A stretch of 64,000 nt of DNA from Chryseobacterium gleum (GTDB lineage Bacteria; Bacteroidota; Bacteroidia; Flavobacteriales_D; Crocinitomicaceae). This document shows positions 54,158 to 64,000 of this stretch, one piece after another. The translations under genes and the position numbers were made by a program. Numbering within the stretch: the first letter of the stretch is position 1; every line of letters starts with the position of its first letter. The stretch covers positions 1-64,000 of the forward strand of contig CAMDMY010000005.1 in the NCBI GenBank assembly GCA_945902775.1, written 5' to 3'. Below the pieces are notes generated by a model. That model did no database searches. It saw nothing but the letters and a program-made list of their open reading frames with translations, and was not told the DNA's origin.

Positions 54158-54197
54158 TTGTAGGGACAAGGCATGCCTTGTCCCTACAAAAAAATCA
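54150..54197. terminator. 48-bp perfect palindrome, bidirectional terminator
   Basis: The sequence is self-complementary over 48 bp, centred between 54173 and 54174 (core GGGACAAGGCATGCCTTGTC). Seven T residues precede and seven A residues follow the GC-rich stem, so it ends transcripts on both strands between convergent ppx and menD. The menD stop codon is its last three bases. The core resembles REP-type palindromes. Confidence 0.85.
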
Positions 54198-55889
54198 TTT
54201 CGTTTTTTCGAAAAAATCGTCAAGAACTATATGATTCAAGTCACTTGGTGTAAATACCTCCATTAATTTTGGTCGACCATCTTCTTCGTACGTGTAAAAT
54301 GATTCCATTTGATTTTCAATGTCTTCAATTGAATTTGCTTGAAAATAATCGACATTAAATGCTTTACAAATATATTCTGCTGAAAAAGTTTGTTCTGCTA
54401 CAAAATATTTATTCAATTGTTCAGTCGAGGCTGGACCAGGAATAATTTTAAAAATACCTCCTCCACTATTGTTAATCATAAAGATTCTAATATTTGGAGT
54501 TAAGTGGTTGTTCCATAAAGCATTGCTATCATAGAAAAAAGAAACATCTCCTGTTATTAAGGTATTCCAATCTTCTTTTTTCACAAATGCTGCACCACAA
54601 GCTGAACTTGTACTTCCATCTATTCCACTCGTCCCTCTATTACTCCAGTAATTTATACTTGGAATAGGATCAAACAACTGACAATAACGAACAACTGAAC
54701 TATTCGCCATATGTAAGTTAGACATTTCTGGTAAATAGTCTAAAACTGTTTCAAAAACTTTTAAATCTGAATAAGGTATACTTTCAAAAAAAGCAGGTAA
54801 TTTATCTTGAACTAAAAAATCTTTTTGCTTCCAATTAGAACCAAACATTGAAACATTTCTTTCAACAGAAAAGTTATTTAAAATCGAAGTGAAAGCCAAT
54901 GGAGAACACTCAAACGTATGCGTTAATGTTTGATAAGTATCCATAAAAGGGAAATCATACCCAACTTTCCAGTGATAATTAGCTTTGTATTTTCTTAAAT
55001 AACTTTTAATACGTTTTGAAACTACTGCACCTCCAATTGTGATTAATAAATCAGGGGCAAAAGCTTCTAATTCGTCTTCTGAAATGGCATTTAATGTTCT
55101 ATCAATCGTATGAATAAAAGTAGAATGTACTTGATTAGATGTGTTTTCCACTAAAATAGCAACAGAAGTATCATCAGCTAATAATTTCATCTGTTCTAAA
55201 AGAGCTTTATCAATTGGTAACTGACCACAAATAATCATTTTTTTTGGAGAAATTTTCCAAATTTCTTTCAATTCATGTTCTTGAGTTGAATTTAATTGAA
55301 AAAATGGTGTTATCGTTTGAATGATTTTCCCTTTTATTGAAGTAATTTCTTCTGTTCCATACAAAGGTTCATTGAATGACATATTGATATGAATCGGACC
55401 TTTCCAAGTACCATTTCCTAGATTAAATGCAGTTGAAATTTCTCTCTCTAATTTCCAAATTTCATCATTTGTTCGACAATGTTCTGATAATGTTGTTGAA
55501 TATCGAATGTGATTTTTAAAAACTTCATGCTGAACAATTGTCTGTCCATCCCCTTGATCAACCCATTCTTCTGGTCTATCGGCAGTAATTACAACTAAAG
55601 GCAATGATTGATAATAAGCTTCAGCGACTGCAGGGTAATAATTCAAAACTGCAGAACCAGAAGTACAAATAATTCCAACAGGTTCGTTCAATTGTTGCGC
55701 CATTCCCATTGCATAAAAAGCAGCACTTCGCTCATCGTGAATGACAATACAATTAATCGATGGATGTTCATCAAAAGCAATAATAAAAGGTGCATTTCTT
55801 GAACCAGGCGAAAAAACAACATTTTTCATCCCGTGTGCTAAGCATTGTTCAACTAATAATTGAACTCCCTTTTTATTACTTGAAATCAT
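54195..55889 (-). CDS. menD: SEPHCHC synthase MenD
   Basis: Thiamine-diphosphate enzyme (564 aa) adding 2-oxoglutarate to isochorismate in menaquinone synthesis. The N-terminal half has VVFSPGSRNAPF and the catalytic Glu in GIICTSGSAVLNYYPAVAEA (split by one residue). The C-terminal half has SNRGTSGIDGSTSSA and the ThDP/Mg motif GDVSFFYDSNAL...NNSGGGIF. It is the third gene after a thioesterase and menF on the same strand, with a 106-bp gap from menF. Confidence 0.95.
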   Translation of the reverse strand: MISSNKKGVQLLVEQCLAHGMKNVVFSPGSRNAPFIIAFDEHPSINCIVIHDERSAAFYAMGMAQQLNEPVGIICTSGSAVLNYYPAVAEAYYQSLPLVVITADRPEEWVDQGDGQTIVQHEVFKNHIRYSTTLSEHCRTNDEIWKLEREISTAFNLGNGTWKGPIHINMSFNEPLYGTEEITSIKGKIIQTITPFFQLNSTQEHELKEIWKISPKKMIICGQLPIDKALLEQMKLLADDTSVAILVENTSNQVHSTFIHTIDRTLNAISEDELEAFAPDLLITIGGAVVSKRIKSYLRKYKANYHWKVGYDFPFMDTYQTLTHTFECSPLAFTSILNNFSVERNVSMFGSNWKQKDFLVQDKLPAFFESIPYSDLKVFETVLDYLPEMSNLHMANSSVVRYCQLFDPIPSINYWSNRGTSGIDGSTSSACGAAFVKKEDWNTLITGDVSFFYDSNALWNNHLTPNIRIFMINNSGGGIFKIIPGPASTEQLNKYFVAEQTFSAEYICKAFNVDYFQANSIEDIENQMESFYTYEEDGRPKLMEVFTPSDLNHIVLDDFFEKTK

Positions 55890-55909
55890 GGGGTAAAGTT
55901 AAATAAAAA

Positions 55910-55980
55910 AATGATGTTGGATGTTGAATGATGAATGTTCAATTATTGAAATTTTCAAGTCATTCGATCAAACATCAATA
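55910..55980. repeat. GATGTTG-type imperfect inverted repeat
   Basis: ATGATGTTGGATGTTGAATG and following words on the left are mirrored by CATTCGATCAAACATCAAT on the right, with an inner TTCAATTATTGAA palindrome. It fills most of the menF-menD gap. Confidence 0.5.
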
Positions 55981-55995
55981 ATTTAAAATTAAAAA

Positions 55996-56964
55996 TTAGA
56001 TATTCTCCATTACATTCAATAAAGTTCTACTTTTATTTTCTGTTTCATTCCATTCATCTAATGGATTTGAATCTTTGGTAAAACCTCCTCCAAGGTATAA
56101 ATAAGCATTCCCTTTTTGAATTTGACAACATCTCAAGTTCACGAATAAATTGGTGGCTTTTGGAGAAATTAATCCAATCATTCCAGTATAAAACTCTCTA
56201 TCGTGCGGTTCTCTAAAATTAATAATTTCAGTCGCTTCTTTTTGAGGTAAACCACAGACAGCAGGAGTTGGATGAATCGATTTGGCTAGCTCAACTACTT
56301 TTGATTGATCAATATCAAAACTAATATCTGTTTTTAAATGAATTACCGGGCCAGCTTCAACATCATATGGACCATTGATATATAACTCTTTAATACCTGA
56401 AGTCAACAGTTTATCTTGGATAAAACCTGTAACATATGCTTGCTCCAATAGTTCTTTCTCTCCCCACGGTTTATCTTTGTCTTGAATTGATTTTGTTCCT
56501 GCCAAAGACATTGTAAAACCCGAATTTGAAAAAGCGTGAATTAAAATCTCTGGAGTAGCCCCAATCCAGGTTCCAATTGATTCTCCAGAAACCAAATAGC
56601 AAAAAGCTTTCGGATAAGTATCACACAAAGAGGCAAATAATTCATTTATCTTAGATTCATCAAAAGCTATTTTTTTGACTCTTGAAAATACCGCTTTTTT
56701 AATTTTTTTTTCTTCAAAAAGGTTTATGAAATTTTTAGCATCTTTCAAATAATCTTCTTTTGAAATAACATAAGGCTCATTACAAAAAAATGTAGACTTC
56801 CCTTCAGAATTATTCGAAGATGGAATAAATTCAATCATTCTGTCTTTTAAAAAAGTAGAAATAAAAAATCCCTTCACTTCTTTCAACGATTGAATTTCTC
56901 TAAAATATCCGATTTGAGAAACGATATCAGAACCAGGAATTCTATATTTTAAAATATCAGCCAT
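55996..56964 (-). CDS. menF: Isochorismate synthase
   Basis: Chorismate-utilising enzyme (322 aa) making isochorismate for menaquinone; a siderophore role (EntC) is less likely beside menD. Chorismate-binding motifs are SRVKKIAFDESK near 99-110, IGATPEILIHAF, LAGTKSI, IHPTPAVCGLPQKEA and FYTGMIGLISP. It is shorter at the N-terminus than E. coli MenF (431 aa). The start overlaps the thioesterase gene by 8 bp. Confidence 0.92.
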   Translation of the reverse strand: MADILKYRIPGSDIVSQIGYFREIQSLKEVKGFFISTFLKDRMIEFIPSSNNSEGKSTFFCNEPYVISKEDYLKDAKNFINLFEEKKIKKAVFSRVKKIAFDESKINELFASLCDTYPKAFCYLVSGESIGTWIGATPEILIHAFSNSGFTMSLAGTKSIQDKDKPWGEKELLEQAYVTGFIQDKLLTSGIKELYINGPYDVEAGPVIHLKTDISFDIDQSKVVELAKSIHPTPAVCGLPQKEATEIINFREPHDREFYTGMIGLISPKATNLFVNLRCCQIQKGNAYLYLGGGFTKDSNPLDEWNETENKSRTLLNVMENI

Positions 56965-57385
56965 TCACTTTTGGAACTATCATTACTGTTAATCGACCTG
57001 TGCAAACTAATTTATCCGTATCTGTATCAAAAATATCAACTTGCCATAAATGAGTTCTTTTTCCGGCATGAACAATTTTCCCTATTCCTTTAACAGTTCC
57101 GCTTTTAACTCCACCAATATGATTTGCATTTATTTCAATTCCAACTGGAGCTTCTTTAGATAAATCTATCAATAAAGTTGACCCCATTGATCCAATACTT
57201 TCAATTAATGCAGCGCTTGCACCACCATGTAATAATCCCATTGGTTGGTGAGTTCTGTGATCCACTGGCATAGTAGAAACAATATAGTCATCCCCTATTT
57301 CAATGCATTTAATACCTAATACTTCCATTAAAGTATTCTTATTAAATGCATTAACCGTATCAATATCAACTTTTTTTAACTTCAT
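56957..57385 (-). CDS. PaaI-type hotdog thioesterase, probable DHNA-CoA thioesterase
   Basis: 142-aa hotdog-fold thioesterase. The motif HQPMGLLHGGASAALIESIGS (read in parts) has the HGG and catalytic Glu typical of the PaaI/MenI class, and MKLKKVDIDTVNAFNKNTLM precedes it. The 8-bp overlap with menF makes hydrolysis of 1,4-dihydroxy-2-naphthoyl-CoA in menaquinone synthesis the most likely task. Confidence 0.85.
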   Translation of the reverse strand: MKLKKVDIDTVNAFNKNTLMEVLGIKCIEIGDDYIVSTMPVDHRTHQPMGLLHGGASAALIESIGSMGSTLLIDLSKEAPVGIEINANHIGGVKSGTVKGIGKIVHAGKRTHLWQVDIFDTDTDKLVCTGRLTVMIVPKVNG

Positions 57386-57455: not shown

Positions 57456-58082
57456 TTATGACTTTTTATTACACAATGCTAGACCTTCAATAGCCGATGC
57501 ATCCTGTTGATACATTAAAAGTACTCTATTAAATAAAACTTTTGCTTCTTCTTTTTTACCTAAATAATAATTTGTCCAAGCACTCATTGTAATTGCATCA
57601 TAATCAAGAGGAAACAATGTCAATGTAACATCAAAATATTTAAGGGCTTCAATATAATTTTTTCTGTAGAAATAGATCATTCCTACTCTATAATTAACCA
57701 ATGAATTTTTAGGATCAAAACGAATAATTAACTTGTAATTATTTTCTAATTCAACCCATTTTTCTTGAGCAACTAAAGGATTACATAATCCCCACAGCGG
57801 TTCTGTTGCAGTTGGCATTAAAGCAATTGCTTTTTTATAGTAAATAACTGAGTTCGAATAGTCTTTGTTTAAATAATTCAACCAACCAATTCGTAAATTA
57901 ACCAAATACGATTTATCTGAATAAATTGTCTGTATTGCTTGTAAAGCTGTTTTGTAATCTCCTTGGTCTTCAGCAATAAAACTTTTAGCAAAAGCTTCTT
58001 GCATTGCTTTTGTCTCCTGTGCATTATAATTAACTGAAATAAACAGTAAAAGAGTGCAAATAATTAACTTAATTGATTTCAT
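57456..58082 (-). CDS. Exported TPR protein (paralogue B)
   Basis: 208 aa with a signal peptide (1-21, ending SVNYNAQ) and four or so tetratricopeptide-like helical pairs across residues 25-200. It is a clear tandem paralogue of the gene just upstream: FAKSF, YSDKSY, GWLNYLNKDY, YYKKAIALMP, YRKNYIEALKYFDV and AKVLFNRVLL all have close matches there. Periplasmic scaffold or adaptor expected. Last gene of the unusual 64-57 kb operon, 34 nt after its paralogue. Confidence 0.8.
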   Translation of the reverse strand: MKSIKLIICTLLLFISVNYNAQETKAMQEAFAKSFIAEDQGDYKTALQAIQTIYSDKSYLVNLRIGWLNYLNKDYSNSVIYYKKAIALMPTATEPLWGLCNPLVAQEKWVELENNYKLIIRFDPKNSLVNYRVGMIYFYRKNYIEALKYFDVTLTLFPLDYDAITMSAWTNYYLGKKEEAKVLFNRVLLMYQQDASAIEGLALCNKKS

Positions 58083-58116
58083 ACTATTTGAATTTAGAAT
58101 GTAAAAATAATCTAAT

Positions 58117-58734
58117 TTATTTAATAAGTGCTAATCCTTCCGTAGCTGAAACATCTCCCTGATATAATAACAATACCCTATTAAATAGTACTTTAGCTTC
58201 ATTTGTCTTTCCTAAAAAATAATCGGTCCAAGCGCTCATTAATAGATTATTGTAATCTAAAGGATATAAATTTAATGCAACATCAAAATACTTTTTAGCC
58301 AAGGTGTAATTCTTTCTATAATAATACATTACCCCTAGTTTATAATGAGCCGTTGCACTTTTTGGTTCTAACTTAATAATTGATAAATACGTTTTTTCAA
58401 CATCCGCCCATTTTTCATCTGCAATTTGTGGAGATAAAATAGCCCACAAAACTTCTACTGAAGCAGGCATTAATTCAATTGCTTTTTTATAATAATTGAT
58501 GGACGAAGCATAATTTTTATCTAAATAACACAACCAGCCTAAACGGGTATTAATAGAGTATGCTTTATCTGAATAAACATCCTTAATAACCTGGATAGCT
58601 TGATCATATTGATATTTAGCTTCATAAGCATAGCTTTTCGCGAATGCAGTCTGTAATACTTTACTGTCTTGTGAAAAAGAGTTCAATGAAACGATTACAC
58701 TAAGCGCTACTAGAGTTTTTCTTAAAAATTCCAT
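58117..58734 (-). CDS. Exported TPR protein (paralogue A)
   Basis: 205 aa with a signal peptide (1-22, ending SLNSFSQ) and a run of TPR motifs (YYKKAIELMP, YKLGVMYYYRKNYTLAKKYF, AWTDYFLGKTNEAKVLFN). It overlaps the outer-membrane barrel gene by 13 bp, implying coupled production. Probably a periplasmic partner of that barrel, whose own N-terminus is TPR-like. Near-duplicate of the following gene. Confidence 0.8.
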   Translation of the reverse strand: MEFLRKTLVALSVIVSLNSFSQDSKVLQTAFAKSYAYEAKYQYDQAIQVIKDVYSDKAYSINTRLGWLCYLDKNYASSINYYKKAIELMPASVEVLWAILSPQIADEKWADVEKTYLSIIKLEPKSATAHYKLGVMYYYRKNYTLAKKYFDVALNLYPLDYNNLLMSAWTDYFLGKTNEAKVLFNRVLLLYQGDVSATEGLALIK

Positions 58735-60104
58735 TTTATTGTTGTTGTTATGTTATTATTTGAATAATTATAGTTGAAATAATTTGCTGTAAAAATAGTA
58801 TTTGGAGATAATCCAGTTTGAGTATATTTAGTATAATATCCTTCTCTTGTCTGATAACTATAACTCAATATAAATTCTACTTTTTTTCCTGTTAAATGTA
58901 AATCCAATCCTGTATTTTGTAGAACTGGATCGGGAGTATTATATGAAGTAAATCCTAAACTTGACATATAATTCAAATGATTCCCTTTTGAATATTTTAC
59001 TTCTAGCCAAACATTTTTAGAAACGATAAATCCGAGTTTTTGACTGAATACATTTTGAATCGCCTCATTATTATTAATATATGCAAATGATGTAGTACCA
59101 AATAACTTCATATTCCCCAGAGGAAAATAGGATAGCGAGACTTCACCCTGATACTGATTTGTACTATATAAATTACTGTAAATTCCAGTTATTTGAGGGA
59201 AAATATATTTCATTCTTTTACCAATTGACAAAGAAACTAAATAATTAGAGTAATTAATTGATTCTGTACTATCAACAAAAACCATTCTAGTTAAATCAGC
59301 TGATTTTATGGTAGTAGACCAAAAACTAGTAGTGTTGGTTTGAAAAAATGCACCACCTAATCCAATTAATAAACCATTTTGAAATTGATATGCCAATCCT
59401 AAATTGTATTGATATTGTAAATTTGTGTATTCTTTCTCAGATTTTAAATTTCTATTTGTCGTCAAATTAAGAAAATCTTTATACGCAAATTCATATTTCG
59501 AATACACATTTGTCTTATATCCTGCTACTTTATTATAAAAATGCAATCGATTTCCAAAGGTATTCTCGACTACTAATCCACCACCACTTGTTACTCCATT
59601 GGAAATTAGATTACCTGAAGTAAAGGTTGAACCTAACAACTGACGATCTTGCCCACTTTTAATACTAGAATTCATATAGGCACCTACTGATAAAATAATG
59701 CTATCGATTTTCTTTTTCACATACCCTACTTTCTTTTGAAAATCAGCACTTAATGAAGTAGCTAAAGCATTTGCATTTTCAATTCTTCCGCTAAATAAAT
59801 AGGTATAATACAAATATTCTTGCACAACCTCATTTGCAGGGTTCATTTTGTAAGCAGCTTCGAAATGCTCCACAGAATACTCATATTTTTTTTCGTTATA
59901 GCCTAGAATAGCCAATCGCATTCTAAAATCATAGAAATCAATCCCCTCTTTTAAGGCTTTTTTCCCTGTTTCTTTAATTGCTTTAAAATCATTTCTCAAA
60001 AATTCTACATAGGAAGCGCTATCAACACTTGGGTACGATATATTCTTTTGAGAAAATAAATTTTGTAAACAAAAAAAGAAAAATAAAACGATTAATAAAC
60101 GCAT
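58722..60104 (-). CDS. TPR plus outer-membrane beta-barrel protein (YaiO-like)
   Basis: 460 aa. A signal peptide (1-18) is followed by a TPR-like region (about 25-120, with YSVEHFEAAYKMNPANEVVQ) and about 330 residues of alternating amphipathic strands rich in Tyr, Asn and Gly, ending in TTIKWNF with the terminal aromatic residue of an outer-membrane barrel. This layout resembles YaiO-type barrel proteins. The transported or bound substrate is unknown. It overlaps genes on both sides by 13 bp. Confidence 0.75.
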   Translation of the reverse strand: MRLLIVLFFFFCLQNLFSQKNISYPSVDSASYVEFLRNDFKAIKETGKKALKEGIDFYDFRMRLAILGYNEKKYEYSVEHFEAAYKMNPANEVVQEYLYYTYLFSGRIENANALATSLSADFQKKVGYVKKKIDSIILSVGAYMNSSIKSGQDRQLLGSTFTSGNLISNGVTSGGGLVVENTFGNRLHFYNKVAGYKTNVYSKYEFAYKDFLNLTTNRNLKSEKEYTNLQYQYNLGLAYQFQNGLLIGLGGAFFQTNTTSFWSTTIKSADLTRMVFVDSTESINYSNYLVSLSIGKRMKYIFPQITGIYSNLYSTNQYQGEVSLSYFPLGNMKLFGTTSFAYINNNEAIQNVFSQKLGFIVSKNVWLEVKYSKGNHLNYMSSLGFTSYNTPDPVLQNTGLDLHLTGKKVEFILSYSYQTREGYYTKYTQTGLSPNTIFTANYFNYNYSNNNITTTIKWNF

Positions 60105-62260
60105 ATAAATGTTTTTTTAACTCCGTTTTGAATAAAACAGAATGTATTAATAGTATTTTCTTTTATGTCAATTTCAAAATTTAGCTTTCTAAATTTTAAA
60201 TTTAAAAATTTAGCTTCTACTTCTGAGGCAATCGTTGCTTTTGATGGTTGGTGAATATTGTCAATATTTATGGATTTTGATCTATACTCAGCCTTTGTAA
60301 ATAAATAAAAAGGGGCTACAAAATCTTGTATCCATTGTAAAATTGGGCTATTAAAATAATTCAATGAAACAGAATCAGTTACATCAACATTCTCGTAACA
60401 GCCTAATAAAACTCTATAACAGCCTAAAAAGAAATAAAACAACAACGATTTTCTACTTCCCTCAAAGTCATAGAAATAAAACATGGTTCCATCATTCACG
60501 AAATACGCAACAGACTTCGTTTTTGGACAGAAAATATAACTTCTATTTAACTCATCTGTATGCACTTCCCACGTTACCTCATCATTCGTTTCAGAATTTT
60601 TAAAGGTGATTTTTCTTCCTGGAATAAAAGCAAAACTATCCGTTAACAATGAATGTGATTCTACGTTACTTATCAAAGTTTCCTCTTTAGGGATTTCCGA
60701 AATTCTCAATTGCTGTTTATTCTTCTCCTTTTCAATAAAATAAGCAATCGGGTATTCTAACGTTTTAGAGCCAATGATGGGTGATAATTGCAATTGAAAA
60801 TGAATATGTGGTTCTGGAGATCTTCCAGAATTCCCACAAGTAGCTAAAACAGATCCTTTCATCACATAGTCACCTATTGCGACTTTAAAAGAATCTTTTT
60901 TGATATGACTAATTTGAGTGAATAATCCATTTTGATGATTCAAAATAATTGTATTCCCCCAATTTTCAACTGTATTTACTCCTGAGATTTCATTCTCTTC
61001 AACTGTATTTATTATATCGTATACAAATCCATCTAAAGGGACTAATACAGGCTTATTGTAACAATAAAAATCTTCTTTTTCGGTCCCAGTATTATTAAAA
61101 GTTGCATTCGTTTCATCTACAATTACAAAATCTAACGCTTTCCCCCAATCTCCTAAATGAGTTATTTTTCCATCATAGCCTTGACTAACAAACCAATCTC
61201 CCCAAAATGGTAAATAAACCTTTGCTAAATGTGCGTTTTTAAAACGATGCATTGAAGTGATGTACTTATAAATCGTTTTTTCAGCTGAATAATATTGTAT
61301 CGTAATCAAATTGAAAAACCTGTGAAACCATCTGTGCTGTAAAAACAATAAAAACAAAGAAACGATTACACTGAATGAAAGTGTAAAAGATTTTAATTGA
61401 AAAACACCCATTGATTTGTTCAAGAAAAGCATTAACATCATTAAAATGGGAGTCAAACAAAAAACGGCCAAATAACTATAAATATTGGGAATTAAGTAAA
61501 AACAACCGATTCCAATTGCCATAAAAATAAAATTCGAACCAACTAAATTCAACTCTAAATCATTTACATCTGCACCAAAAGCAGTATAAAAAAGATAGGC
61601 TGAAAGAAATCCGATTAAACTCAAAGTAAAAGCAATTCTAGAAAAATACAAAATCGCAGCTGCTACTAAAATACCTGCTAATACACTCGTTTGAAAAAAA
61701 GTACCTGCTAACGTTTTAAAATAAATCAACGCAAATTTTGGAACAGAAATAGCATCAAATGAATGTACAAACTGATAAAAAGGGAATGTTTCTTGTTTCG
61801 CTAAATGATTCAATACGAACACATTATCTTCGTTCAGATAAATATTACTAAAACTACCTACTGATAAGGAAATAATTGAATAAGTTAAAATAAAAGGAAA
61901 TGCTAAAAAAGGTAGTTTATGCCTACTAAAAATTCCATGCAACCAAACAGAAATCATCAACAACATTGCAATAGCAACAAAAAATAAAAGAATAAAAGTT
62001 GCATTTACTTCGTATTGATATCCTAAAAACAACCCCAATAGTAGAGCATTGAATCCATATAACCCTTCTCCTATTAAATGTCTGTTAATACCAGTTAAAT
62101 AGGCAATTGTGTTGATTAAAATAACTGCTAAAAGTCCTGATAAACCTAAATGAGGTGTAAAAAAAGTAATTAGAACGATAACCAAAGCCAACACTTTATC
62201 AACAGAATAAAAGATCTGACTATAACTATTCAATATGGTATTGATCCAGTATTTCAGCAT
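60092..62260 (-). CDS. Urea-transporter / M23 peptidase fusion protein
   Basis: 722 aa. Residues 1 to about 310 form a urea-transporter (UT) domain with about ten hydrophobic segments and the UT signature GEGLYGFNALLLGLFLG (65-81), repeated more weakly in the second half. Residues about 360-495 form an M23 (LytM-type) domain: HLGDWGKALDF (368-378), ENWGNTIILNH, QISHIKKDS (His453) and SPEPHIHFQLQ (His485, His487). The usual first ligand pair HxxxD is altered: the residue four before Asp377 is Gly, and the nearest His is nine before. Residues 500-722 are unrecognised. Fusion suggests a periplasmic domain tied to a urea/small-amide channel. Confidence 0.82.
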   Translation of the reverse strand: MLKYWINTILNSYSQIFYSVDKVLALVIVLITFFTPHLGLSGLLAVILINTIAYLTGINRHLIGEGLYGFNALLLGLFLGYQYEVNATFILLFFVAIAMLLMISVWLHGIFSRHKLPFLAFPFILTYSIISLSVGSFSNIYLNEDNVFVLNHLAKQETFPFYQFVHSFDAISVPKFALIYFKTLAGTFFQTSVLAGILVAAAILYFSRIAFTLSLIGFLSAYLFYTAFGADVNDLELNLVGSNFIFMAIGIGCFYLIPNIYSYLAVFCLTPILMMLMLFLNKSMGVFQLKSFTLSFSVIVSLFLLFLQHRWFHRFFNLITIQYYSAEKTIYKYITSMHRFKNAHLAKVYLPFWGDWFVSQGYDGKITHLGDWGKALDFVIVDETNATFNNTGTEKEDFYCYNKPVLVPLDGFVYDIINTVEENEISGVNTVENWGNTIILNHQNGLFTQISHIKKDSFKVAIGDYVMKGSVLATCGNSGRSPEPHIHFQLQLSPIIGSKTLEYPIAYFIEKEKNKQQLRISEIPKEETLISNVESHSLLTDSFAFIPGRKITFKNSETNDEVTWEVHTDELNRSYIFCPKTKSVAYFVNDGTMFYFYDFEGSRKSLLFYFFLGCYRVLLGCYENVDVTDSVSLNYFNSPILQWIQDFVAPFYLFTKAEYRSKSINIDNIHQPSKATIASEVEAKFLNLKFRKLNFEIDIKENTINTFCFIQNGVKKTFICVY

Positions 62261-62271
62261 GCGTTTTTATT

Positions 62272-62340
62272 TATTAGTTAATAGTTATTAGCAATTAGTA
62301 GATAGCAAAAACTAACTACTAATCACTAAAATCTAGTAAA
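62272..62340. repeat. TTAGTA-type imperfect inverted repeat
   Basis: TTAGTTAATAGTTATTAGC and AATTAGTAGATAG on the left are mirrored by AACTAACTACTAATCAC and AAAATCTAGT on the right. It occupies nearly the entire gap between the decarboxylase-fold gene and the UT-M23 gene. Confidence 0.5.
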
Positions 62341-62341
62341 A

Positions 62342-63697
62342 CTACTGTATATTTTTCAAATGCTCAGGCATTCTTTCTAATTCCATCATTGTATCTAATG
62401 ATTCGTTTTCACGAAGAATATGAGATTTTCCTTCCATATCGATCATTACAATTTTTGGTCTCATTTGTATGAATTGCATCCACTGTGTCATGTTGTAAGC
62501 TCCCACTTTGTGAACAACAACTTGATCTCCTTTATTCAACAATGGTAAATTTATGCTTTCTCTGATACAATCGATATTCATGCACAATGGACCATAAATT
62601 ACCATATCTTCAGTATGGTGAGTAAATTCTTGCGCTGGAGAAATTTTGTAATCGTACCAGAAAGCATTAAATAATAAGTTTACACCAAAATCCATTATTG
62701 TTGCTCTTCTATCGTCACTCAATCTTTTCGTTGCAACTACCGAACCAATCAACCAAGCCGCATCGTCAATTAATGCTCTACCTGATTCTAAAATGATTGT
62801 TGGTAATTCATCTTGAGCGAAATTTGAATTTAGAATAGCCGAAGTAATTACTTCTGCATAATCATCGATCGTTGGAACGATATCTGCACCTTGTAAATAC
62901 GAACCTTTCAGCGTGTTAGTTGAAGCAAATCCTCCACCTAAATCTAAGTATTGAATTGGTTTACCTGTTTTCAATTTCACATTCGTTGCTAAATCACATA
63001 ACTTATAAGCAGCTGTTGCATAAGCACTTGTAGACAACATAAAAGTACCAATGTGACTATGTAAACCAACTAATTCTAATTCTTTGTGAGCTAAAATTTT
63101 GATAATTGCATTCCAAGCCTGACCATTCTCATAATTGAATCCGAAACGATCCCACATTGGGTAGATACCAGTATCCATATTTACACGAATCGCAACTCTT
63201 GCTTTTTTCCCTGTACCGTCCAATAGTCCAACTAATGAATATAATTCGTCGAAGTGATCAATGTGAATTAAAGAGTTGTTTTCAACTGCTAATGCTAAAT
63301 CTTCTTCTGTTTTATCTGGACCATTGAAAATGATTTTATTTCCTTCAACACCATTTAACAAAGCTTTTTTGTATTCATAAATTGATACAACTTCTGCCCA
63401 TGAACCTTCTTGGTGAAATACATTACAAACTGCACTCAAATAGTTTGTTTTGTAACTCCAAGCAAATTGAATTTTTGGGTATCTTGTTTTGAACGCTCTG
63501 TTCGCATTTTGAACATTTTTACGGATTTGTCTTTCCGAAATAACGAAACAAGGTGAACCGTAATCTTCAATTAATTTACTAACTCTTACACCGTCTAAAT
63601 GTGTTACTGGAGCAAATTCTGTTTTTGTTCCAAATTTGTTCATTGAACCTGTATTCAATTTTTGAATAAATGGTCTCTCGTATGATAACTTACTCAT
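62342..63697 (-). CDS. Type III PLP-dependent decarboxylase-fold enzyme (LysA-like)
   Basis: 451 aa of the alanine-racemase-fold decarboxylase class (diaminopimelate, arginine, ornithine and carboxynorspermidine decarboxylases). The PLP lysine is Lys83 in FAWSYKTNYLSAV. Other class marks are VGLHSHIGT (210-218), the phosphate loop DLGGGFAST, ESGRALIDD (304-312) and the second-subunit cysteine in GPLCMNID. Which amino acid it uses cannot be settled; the neighbours argue against ordinary lysine synthesis. Preceded by the ATP-grasp-like gene and followed by UT-M23. Confidence 0.82.
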   Translation of the reverse strand: MSKLSYERPFIQKLNTGSMNKFGTKTEFAPVTHLDGVRVSKLIEDYGSPCFVISERQIRKNVQNANRAFKTRYPKIQFAWSYKTNYLSAVCNVFHQEGSWAEVVSIYEYKKALLNGVEGNKIIFNGPDKTEEDLALAVENNSLIHIDHFDELYSLVGLLDGTGKKARVAIRVNMDTGIYPMWDRFGFNYENGQAWNAIIKILAHKELELVGLHSHIGTFMLSTSAYATAAYKLCDLATNVKLKTGKPIQYLDLGGGFASTNTLKGSYLQGADIVPTIDDYAEVITSAILNSNFAQDELPTIILESGRALIDDAAWLIGSVVATKRLSDDRRATIMDFGVNLLFNAFWYDYKISPAQEFTHHTEDMVIYGPLCMNIDCIRESINLPLLNKGDQVVVHKVGAYNMTQWMQFIQMRPKIVMIDMEGKSHILRENESLDTMMELERMPEHLKNIQ

Positions 63698-63730
63698 AAT
63701 GTTTTAATTTTATAATGTTGTTTTATTTTT

Positions 63731-63828
63731 GACTTTAGACATTAGATGTTAGACTTTAGACTGATTATCAACAAAGTAAAACTCATTTGTCTAATGTCTA
63801 TTGTCTAAAAATCTATAGTCTCTTGTCA
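63731..63828. repeat. TAGAC-type imperfect inverted repeat
   Basis: GACTTTAGACATTAGATG and TTAGACTTTAGACTG on the left, TTGTCTAATGTCTATTGTC and CTATAGTC on the right, with a loop of about 25 nt. It lies between the ATP-grasp-like stop and the decarboxylase-fold start. Confidence 0.6.
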
Positions 63829-63831
63829 ATT

Positions 63832-64000
63832 TTATAATTCTCCTAATGTTGAAATTTTTTCGTAATCCTTAATATCTACTATTTGATCGAATGAAAAACG
63901 GACAAATAATTTTCCTACATCATACGATTCAAATGGTTTCACTTCTTCACCTAAAGCCATTTTTACTAAAGCTTCTGGATGATTTTGACCACAACCTTTA
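63832..64000 (-). CDS. ATP-grasp-like protein, C-terminal end only
   Basis: An open minus-strand frame enters from the window edge and stops at 63832-63834; 55 residues are visible, containing GCGQNHPEALVKMALGEEV and ending STLGEL. The NHPEAL-x-KMALG pattern resembles the C-terminal end of carbamoyl-phosphate-synthase-like ATP-grasp enzymes, but so little is visible that the family is only suggested. It is the visible first member of the operon leading to the decarboxylase-fold and UT-M23 genes. Confidence 0.5.
   Translation of the reverse strand, partial: KGCGQNHPEALVKMALGEEVKPFESYDVGKLFVRFSFDQIVDIKDYEKISTLGEL

Follow-up and report, generated by a model that had tools for sequence, protein, structure and literature searches.

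A conserved and apparently undescribed gene cassette of Bacteroidota that combines a PqqD-like protein, an ATP-grasp ligase and a fold III decarboxylase with a urea-transporter-fold/M23 fusion and a TPR-barrel

What brings together, on a single strand of a Bacteroidota genome, the genes for a ligase and a PLP decarboxylase and those for a channel-like protein fused to a peptidase domain and a predicted outer-membrane barrel? The question is raised by the right end of the window, i.e. the whole 64,000-bp stretch analysed, which corresponds to bases 1-64000 of a 68,754-bp contig in a 3.1-Mb draft genome. The window contains five complete genes of the cassette and the 3' end of the ATP-grasp gene, all on the minus strand, and the remainder of the ATP-grasp gene, a PqqD-like gene and the gene for a LytTR response regulator lie beyond its edge, as follows:

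63832..64000, minus strand: 3' end of the ATP-grasp ligase gene (full gene C5:63832-64881, 349 aa; CPS-like/ATPgrasp_Ter)
62342..63697, minus strand: fold III PLP decarboxylase (DecIII), 451 aa (PF02784/PF00278; nearest to the N-citrylornithine decarboxylase FigC/FslC)
60092..62260, minus strand: UT-M23 fusion (PF03253, E 3e-41; PF01551, E 2e-12)
58722..60104, minus strand: TPR-barrel outer-membrane protein, 460 aa (signal sequence, N-terminal TPR helices and a modelled 14-stranded beta-barrel)
58117..58734, minus strand: secreted TPR protein, 205 aa, the conserved TPR member
57456..58082, minus strand: second secreted TPR protein, 208 aa, a paralogue of the 205-aa protein present in some lineages only
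C5:64874-65122, outside the window: PqqD-like (RRE-type) protein, 82 aa, PF05402, encoded by the first gene of the operon
C5:65294-65992, outside the window: LytTR response regulator, preceding the PqqD-like gene

Overlaps of 13 nt were found at each of two junctions, UT-M23/barrel and barrel/TPR, and one of 8 nt, outside the window, between the PqqD-like and ATP-grasp genes, with spacings of 134 nt between the ATP-grasp and decarboxylase genes, 81 nt between the decarboxylase and UT-M23 genes, and 34 nt between the two TPR genes. The open reading frames and Pfam matches bore out the genes and domains that an earlier note had assigned to this part of the minus strand. All members of its six-gene set are real, but the set did not include the start of the operon, the PqqD-like gene past the window edge, and of its two TPR partners one is conserved but the other falls outside the core. 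Directly downstream on the same strand (window 54195-57385) are MenD-like (by eye), chorismate-binding (PF00425) and thioesterase (PF03061) genes, which are ordinary and outside the cassette. On the other side, past the regulator and outside the window, L002:9171-11754 (contig 66171-68754) contains genes for an SDR oxidoreductase and, by eye, an AAA-type ATPase, and the start of an integrase-like gene, also recognised by eye, lies at the contig end.

Searching 299 genomes of the order, we found 17 full-length UT-M23 proteins, the window's included, plus one M23-only match; a scan of the collection gave seven loci, one being a duplicate of a genome from the order search. Wherever the contig allowed, the genes at these loci ran from PqqD-like through ATP-grasp, decarboxylase, UT-M23 and TPR-barrel to TPR. 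In a phylum search with the ATP-grasp ligase, the cassette enzyme was present in 34 of 395 Bacteroidota genomes, and the run of PqqD-like, ATP-grasp, decarboxylase and UT-M23 genes was retained in all 34; the TPR gene was recognised in nearly all of them, the TPR/barrel genes were kept in most, and UT-M23 was split or shortened in a few. Conserved co-occurrence, on which the earlier note had staked its grouping, was thus strongly upheld. Its recurrence in genomes across the phylum puts the cassette far beyond chance, and the four core proteins are correlated in their pairwise identities (r 0.75-0.88). It is nearly certain that the cassette genes are conserved as one unit and form one functional unit.

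Several loci depart from this layout. For example, L105 has an FG-GAP gene inserted after PqqD; PqqD and ATP-grasp are separated by the gene for a T9SS-tailed multicopper oxidase in L037 (L037:4358-6061) and at the equivalent place in L038; UT-M23 is spread over two frames in L029; and in one class (L086 onward) a protein of ~270-300 aa, presumed to be a barrel and encoded after the TPR gene, takes the place of the 440-460-aa TPR-barrel. In L028, no barrel was seen and the TPR gene is placed ahead of PqqD; this locus carries the label Victivallaceae and shares 72-85% identity with a Bacteroidales MAG, which reflects either transfer or misbinning. Two short contigs of the window's own assembly, G000, namely C154 and C156 (L111 and L112), carry PqqD and ATP-grasp genes that are 76-79% identical to the main copy and adjoin a gene for a divergent 720-aa LRR-type protein, representing either extra copies or contamination (assembly contamination, 4%). 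The plasmid search returned only M23-domain matches. No publication on this gene combination was found in the open-access literature searched, and the cassette looks like an apparently undescribed Bacteroidota pathway.

At the window's locus, a 21-nt-phased direct repeat is located 85 and 64 nt ahead of the PqqD start codon, and between the regulator and PqqD an inverted repeat followed by A/T-rich sequence was seen by eye, likely a terminator. Because LytTR-type 21-nt direct repeats upstream of PqqD exceeded mononucleotide shuffles only in L002, L024, L031, L033, L034 and L043, control of the cassette by the neighbouring regulator can be called suggestive. In L040 and other loci with AraC-type neighbours, an inverted repeat, TTACACA...TGTGTAA, was noted by eye near the operon start.

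The PqqD-like protein matched PF05402 with an E of 4e-10 and 40.2 bits, above the gathering cut-off of 23.4. Within its family only G13, F14, F16, G21 and N27 are conserved at 97% or more, the C-terminus is variable and there is no invariant nucleophile, so that a role as covalent carrier is unlikely; the covalent attachment residue of a butirosin-type carrier is absent from these proteins. In the butirosin side-chain module, the helper in the BtrI/BtrJ logic is an acyl carrier protein. The cassette resembles BtrI/BtrJ/BtrK in combining a small helper, an ATP-grasp ligase and a fold III PLP decarboxylase for a conjugated amino acid, but its helper is PqqD-like and no acyl carrier protein, it has no aminoglycoside genes, and its envelope half has no butirosin counterpart. 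In the ATP-grasp ligase, the 17 binding/catalytic-motif positions tested were invariant in 54 homologues, with the motif E269, E282, N284 and R286 kept in 54/54; its profile matches were CPS-like, with weak matches to D-Ala-D-Ala ligase models and no graspetide-type model among them.

In DecIII, K83 (PLP lysine), R171, H215 (PLP-stacking), C372 (catalytic) and M373 were invariant in 54/54 sequences, the first four aligning with FigC K63, R151, H198 and C354, respectively, and the lysine, stacking histidine, arginine near PLP and cysteine of fold III (AR-fold) PLP decarboxylases are thus all present. The best solved match was N-citrylornithine decarboxylase (7kh2, E 1e-54), and BtrK (2j66, 7ru7) was also matched. 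In ODC, ADC and DAPDC, an acidic residue after the catalytic Cys binds the side-chain amine of the substrate (PMC7857480). Both DecIII and N-citrylornithine decarboxylase have Met at that position, where the residue characteristic of LysA is acidic. Since Met replaces the amine-binding residue, the substrate of DecIII would lack a free basic side chain and is probably an amino acid conjugated at its side chain. Of LysA, SpeA and CANSDC, with which the earlier note had suggested comparing the active site, none is as good a parallel as the enzymes for conjugated amino acids. Against the LysA model TIGR01048, the cassette enzymes scored 210-244 bits, always under the curated cut-off of 297.9. That DecIII is simply the genome's LysA was rejected, as 11 of the 18 cassette genomes checked carry a separate LysA above cut-off as well. 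G000 and some relatives have no recognisable LysA, and the same holds for cassette-free members of the family; G000 has a DAP epimerase, and a weak LysA match on C68 is SpeA-like by eye.

The UT-M23 protein comprises a urea-transporter-fold domain (aa 6-306), an M23/LytM metallopeptidase domain (about 350-495) and a C-terminal beta-rich domain (about 505-722). It matched PF03253 with 141.8 bits against a cut-off of 25, the AlphaFold2 model of its UT domain gave a TM of 0.82 to dvUT (3me1), and the M23 fold was recovered in a model that was built on eight sequences and has a moderate whole-protein mean pLDDT of 67. The C-terminal domain (window 60092-60748) was modelled with good local confidence; neither Pfam nor NCBIfam has a family matching it, nor was there a fold match for it among the 50 listed. 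The M23 site has its full H/D and HxH ligands and catalytic His, with H368, D377 and H452 kept in 55/55 sequences and H485 and H487 in 54/55 (one sequence being gapped). The roles of E187, T130 and T294 in the urea filter of the UT pore have been described (PMC4357013). In the cassette proteins, the acid/amide of the E187 position is lost (A/L/S/G/M/F in the 52 listed of 55 sequences), Ser takes the place of T130 in 50/55 and T294 is mixed (S/V/T/A), while the aromatic slots are kept, and the set of Glu or Gln with T130 and T294 that would indicate urea transport is therefore not retained. The yut model score was 82 bits against a cut-off of 275, and only one of the 37 cassette genomes has urease. 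Because the filter acid/amide is lost and the other 36 genomes are without urease, plain urea transport is unlikely, and plain urea uptake was ruled out on these grounds. The urea-family channel fused to a LytM-type domain, as earlier described, therefore stands with respect to fold and fusion but not to urea function. With bacterial urea transporters such as dvUT the protein shares the fold and the PF03253 match, but it differs from them in the fused M23 and C-terminal domains, in these filter positions and in the near absence of urease.

The AlphaFold2 model of the TPR-barrel (pLDDT 76) has seven TPR-type helices at the N-terminus followed by 14 strands, supporting the earlier suggestion of an outer-membrane barrel with TPR. 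BcsC, which like PgaA is a TPR-barrel polysaccharide exporter, was among the fold matches of the model. The two are alike in that a periplasmic TPR part feeds an outer-membrane barrel; however, the cassette protein has a short TPR domain and 14 strands, and no polysaccharide synthase is present in the cassette.

Considering these components together, we tentatively propose, as a possibility rather short of an even chance, a conserved and regulated pathway in which a small conjugate would be built in the cytoplasm and delivered across both membranes, with reaction order, export and product all putative. The ATP-grasp ligase and its PqqD-like partner would link an amino acid, via its side chain, through an amide or comparable bond, and DecIII would strip the alpha-carboxylate off the conjugate to give an amine-tailed product. 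This product would exit via the urea-transporter-fold channel, the filter of which no longer suits urea; the fused zinc M23 domain may trim it or open the cell wall, and the TPR proteins and TPR-barrel would carry it through the outer membrane. In one class, guessed to be Ignavibacteria-like, a T9SS-exported partner protein may work with the product outside. The most economical mechanism is one of ligation and decarboxylation, after which an amine-tailed product crosses both membranes, and the layout from cytoplasm through inner membrane and periplasm to outer membrane, together with the idea of a small amine or amide, is still the best reading, as in the earlier note, although product and transport direction are inferred. 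Three points count against this proposal. UT proteins conduct very small solutes passively, and a conjugate of citryl or peptide size would be too large for a urea pore; the usual role of M23 domains is to cleave peptidoglycan, an activity with no evident use in small-amine export; and the PqqD-like protein suggests a peptide substrate. The sequence is compatible with export or import alike, and it is export that we infer.

A peptide substrate would imply a different role, in which the PqqD-like protein, as a RiPP recognition element, presents a ribosomal substrate, perhaps a T9SS-exported partner, the ATP-grasp ligase and DecIII attach and decarboxylate an amino acid, and the envelope genes mature or place the product. 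We regard such peptide or protein modification as rather unlikely. The PF05402 match and the overlap of PqqD with ATP-grasp argue for it, and a discrete PF05402 protein adjoins an ATP-grasp ligase in PqqD/RRE-dependent RiPP systems too, including graspetides; however, the cassette ligase is CPS-like and matches no graspetide-type model, no small ORF within 600 nt of the cassette is shared beyond close relatives (an unlinked precursor being possible), and we know of no PLP decarboxylase or UT-M23 in such systems. A precursor peptide inside the operon, as expected of a RiPP cluster, was looked for and not found. T9SS-tailed proteins beside or inside the cassette also favour modification, namely the multicopper oxidase of L037 and L038 and, in the G480 class, a protein of 280 aa that combines an FG-GAP-like domain with a T9SS sorting tail. 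The gene of the latter is close to PqqD in twelve loci, ten of which have it directly upstream, and is present in 13 of 149 genomes of the class, all 13 being within the 24 that have the cassette ATP-grasp. In seven of these 13 genomes the gene and the cassette are apart, at a great distance on one contig in G420 and G717 and on different contigs of the draft in the other five; the probability of such nesting by chance, with shared ancestry ignored, is about 1.5e-12, or 3e-8 by genus. Against this, T9SS proteins are common in the G480 class, which we guess to be Ignavibacteria-like from the NYPNPFNP tail motif, and the N-terminal domain of the 280-aa protein is absent from the window's lineage, where the full-length profile, mostly catching T9SS tails, is uninformative; extending the link to that lineage is thus unsupported. 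It is doubtful, though conceivable, that an amine-tailed compound reaches the surface via UT-M23 and the TPR-barrel and is attached to, or used by, T9SS-exported proteins.

Import of cell-wall fragments, which we also consider unlikely, would give the peptidase its usual task: M23 would cut peptidoglycan peptides, the fragments would enter via barrel and channel, and the ATP-grasp ligase and DecIII would rework them in the cytoplasm, for example by decarboxylation of the free D-centre of a DAP residue acylated at its L-centre. LysA, to which DecIII is related, acts on the D-centre of meso-DAP, the M23 site is intact across the family, and the ATP-grasp ligase weakly matches D-Ala-D-Ala ligase models. 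However, Met in DecIII replaces the distal-amine residue of DAPDC, no murein-recycling genes recur beside the cassette, and the distribution is patchy (34/395) in a phylum where nearly all members are expected to have DAP peptidoglycan.

A rhizoferrin-type pathway to a siderophore or metal ligand is highly improbable. FslC/FigC is the closest solved decarboxylase and shares the Cys-Met and GAYN motifs with DecIII, two genomes have a multicopper oxidase within the cassette, and one has a TonB receptor upstream, but DecIII scores 220 bits against the cut-off of 500 of the FslC/FigC model NF041039, His357 of FigC is replaced by Ile375, and the cassette has neither a NIS synthetase nor a conserved TonB receptor. 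That a genuine urea transporter, an extra LysA and unrelated TPR genes merely adjoin by chance, a view for which it can be said that each protein has a distant named family, is refuted by the conservation data and has practically no probability left, given the fixed order in every ATP-grasp genome, the separate LysA, the missing urease and the lost filter residues. Anti-phage defence was also rejected, there being no PADLOC match for the six cassette proteins.

The cassette predicts a definite product class, a decarboxylated conjugate, and assigns a urea-transporter fold a likely non-urea role, tied to a cell-wall peptidase and an outer-membrane barrel. A set that is co-conserved in many Bacteroidota families, with intact enzymes and often with its own regulators, implies a seemingly undescribed function that is worth keeping.
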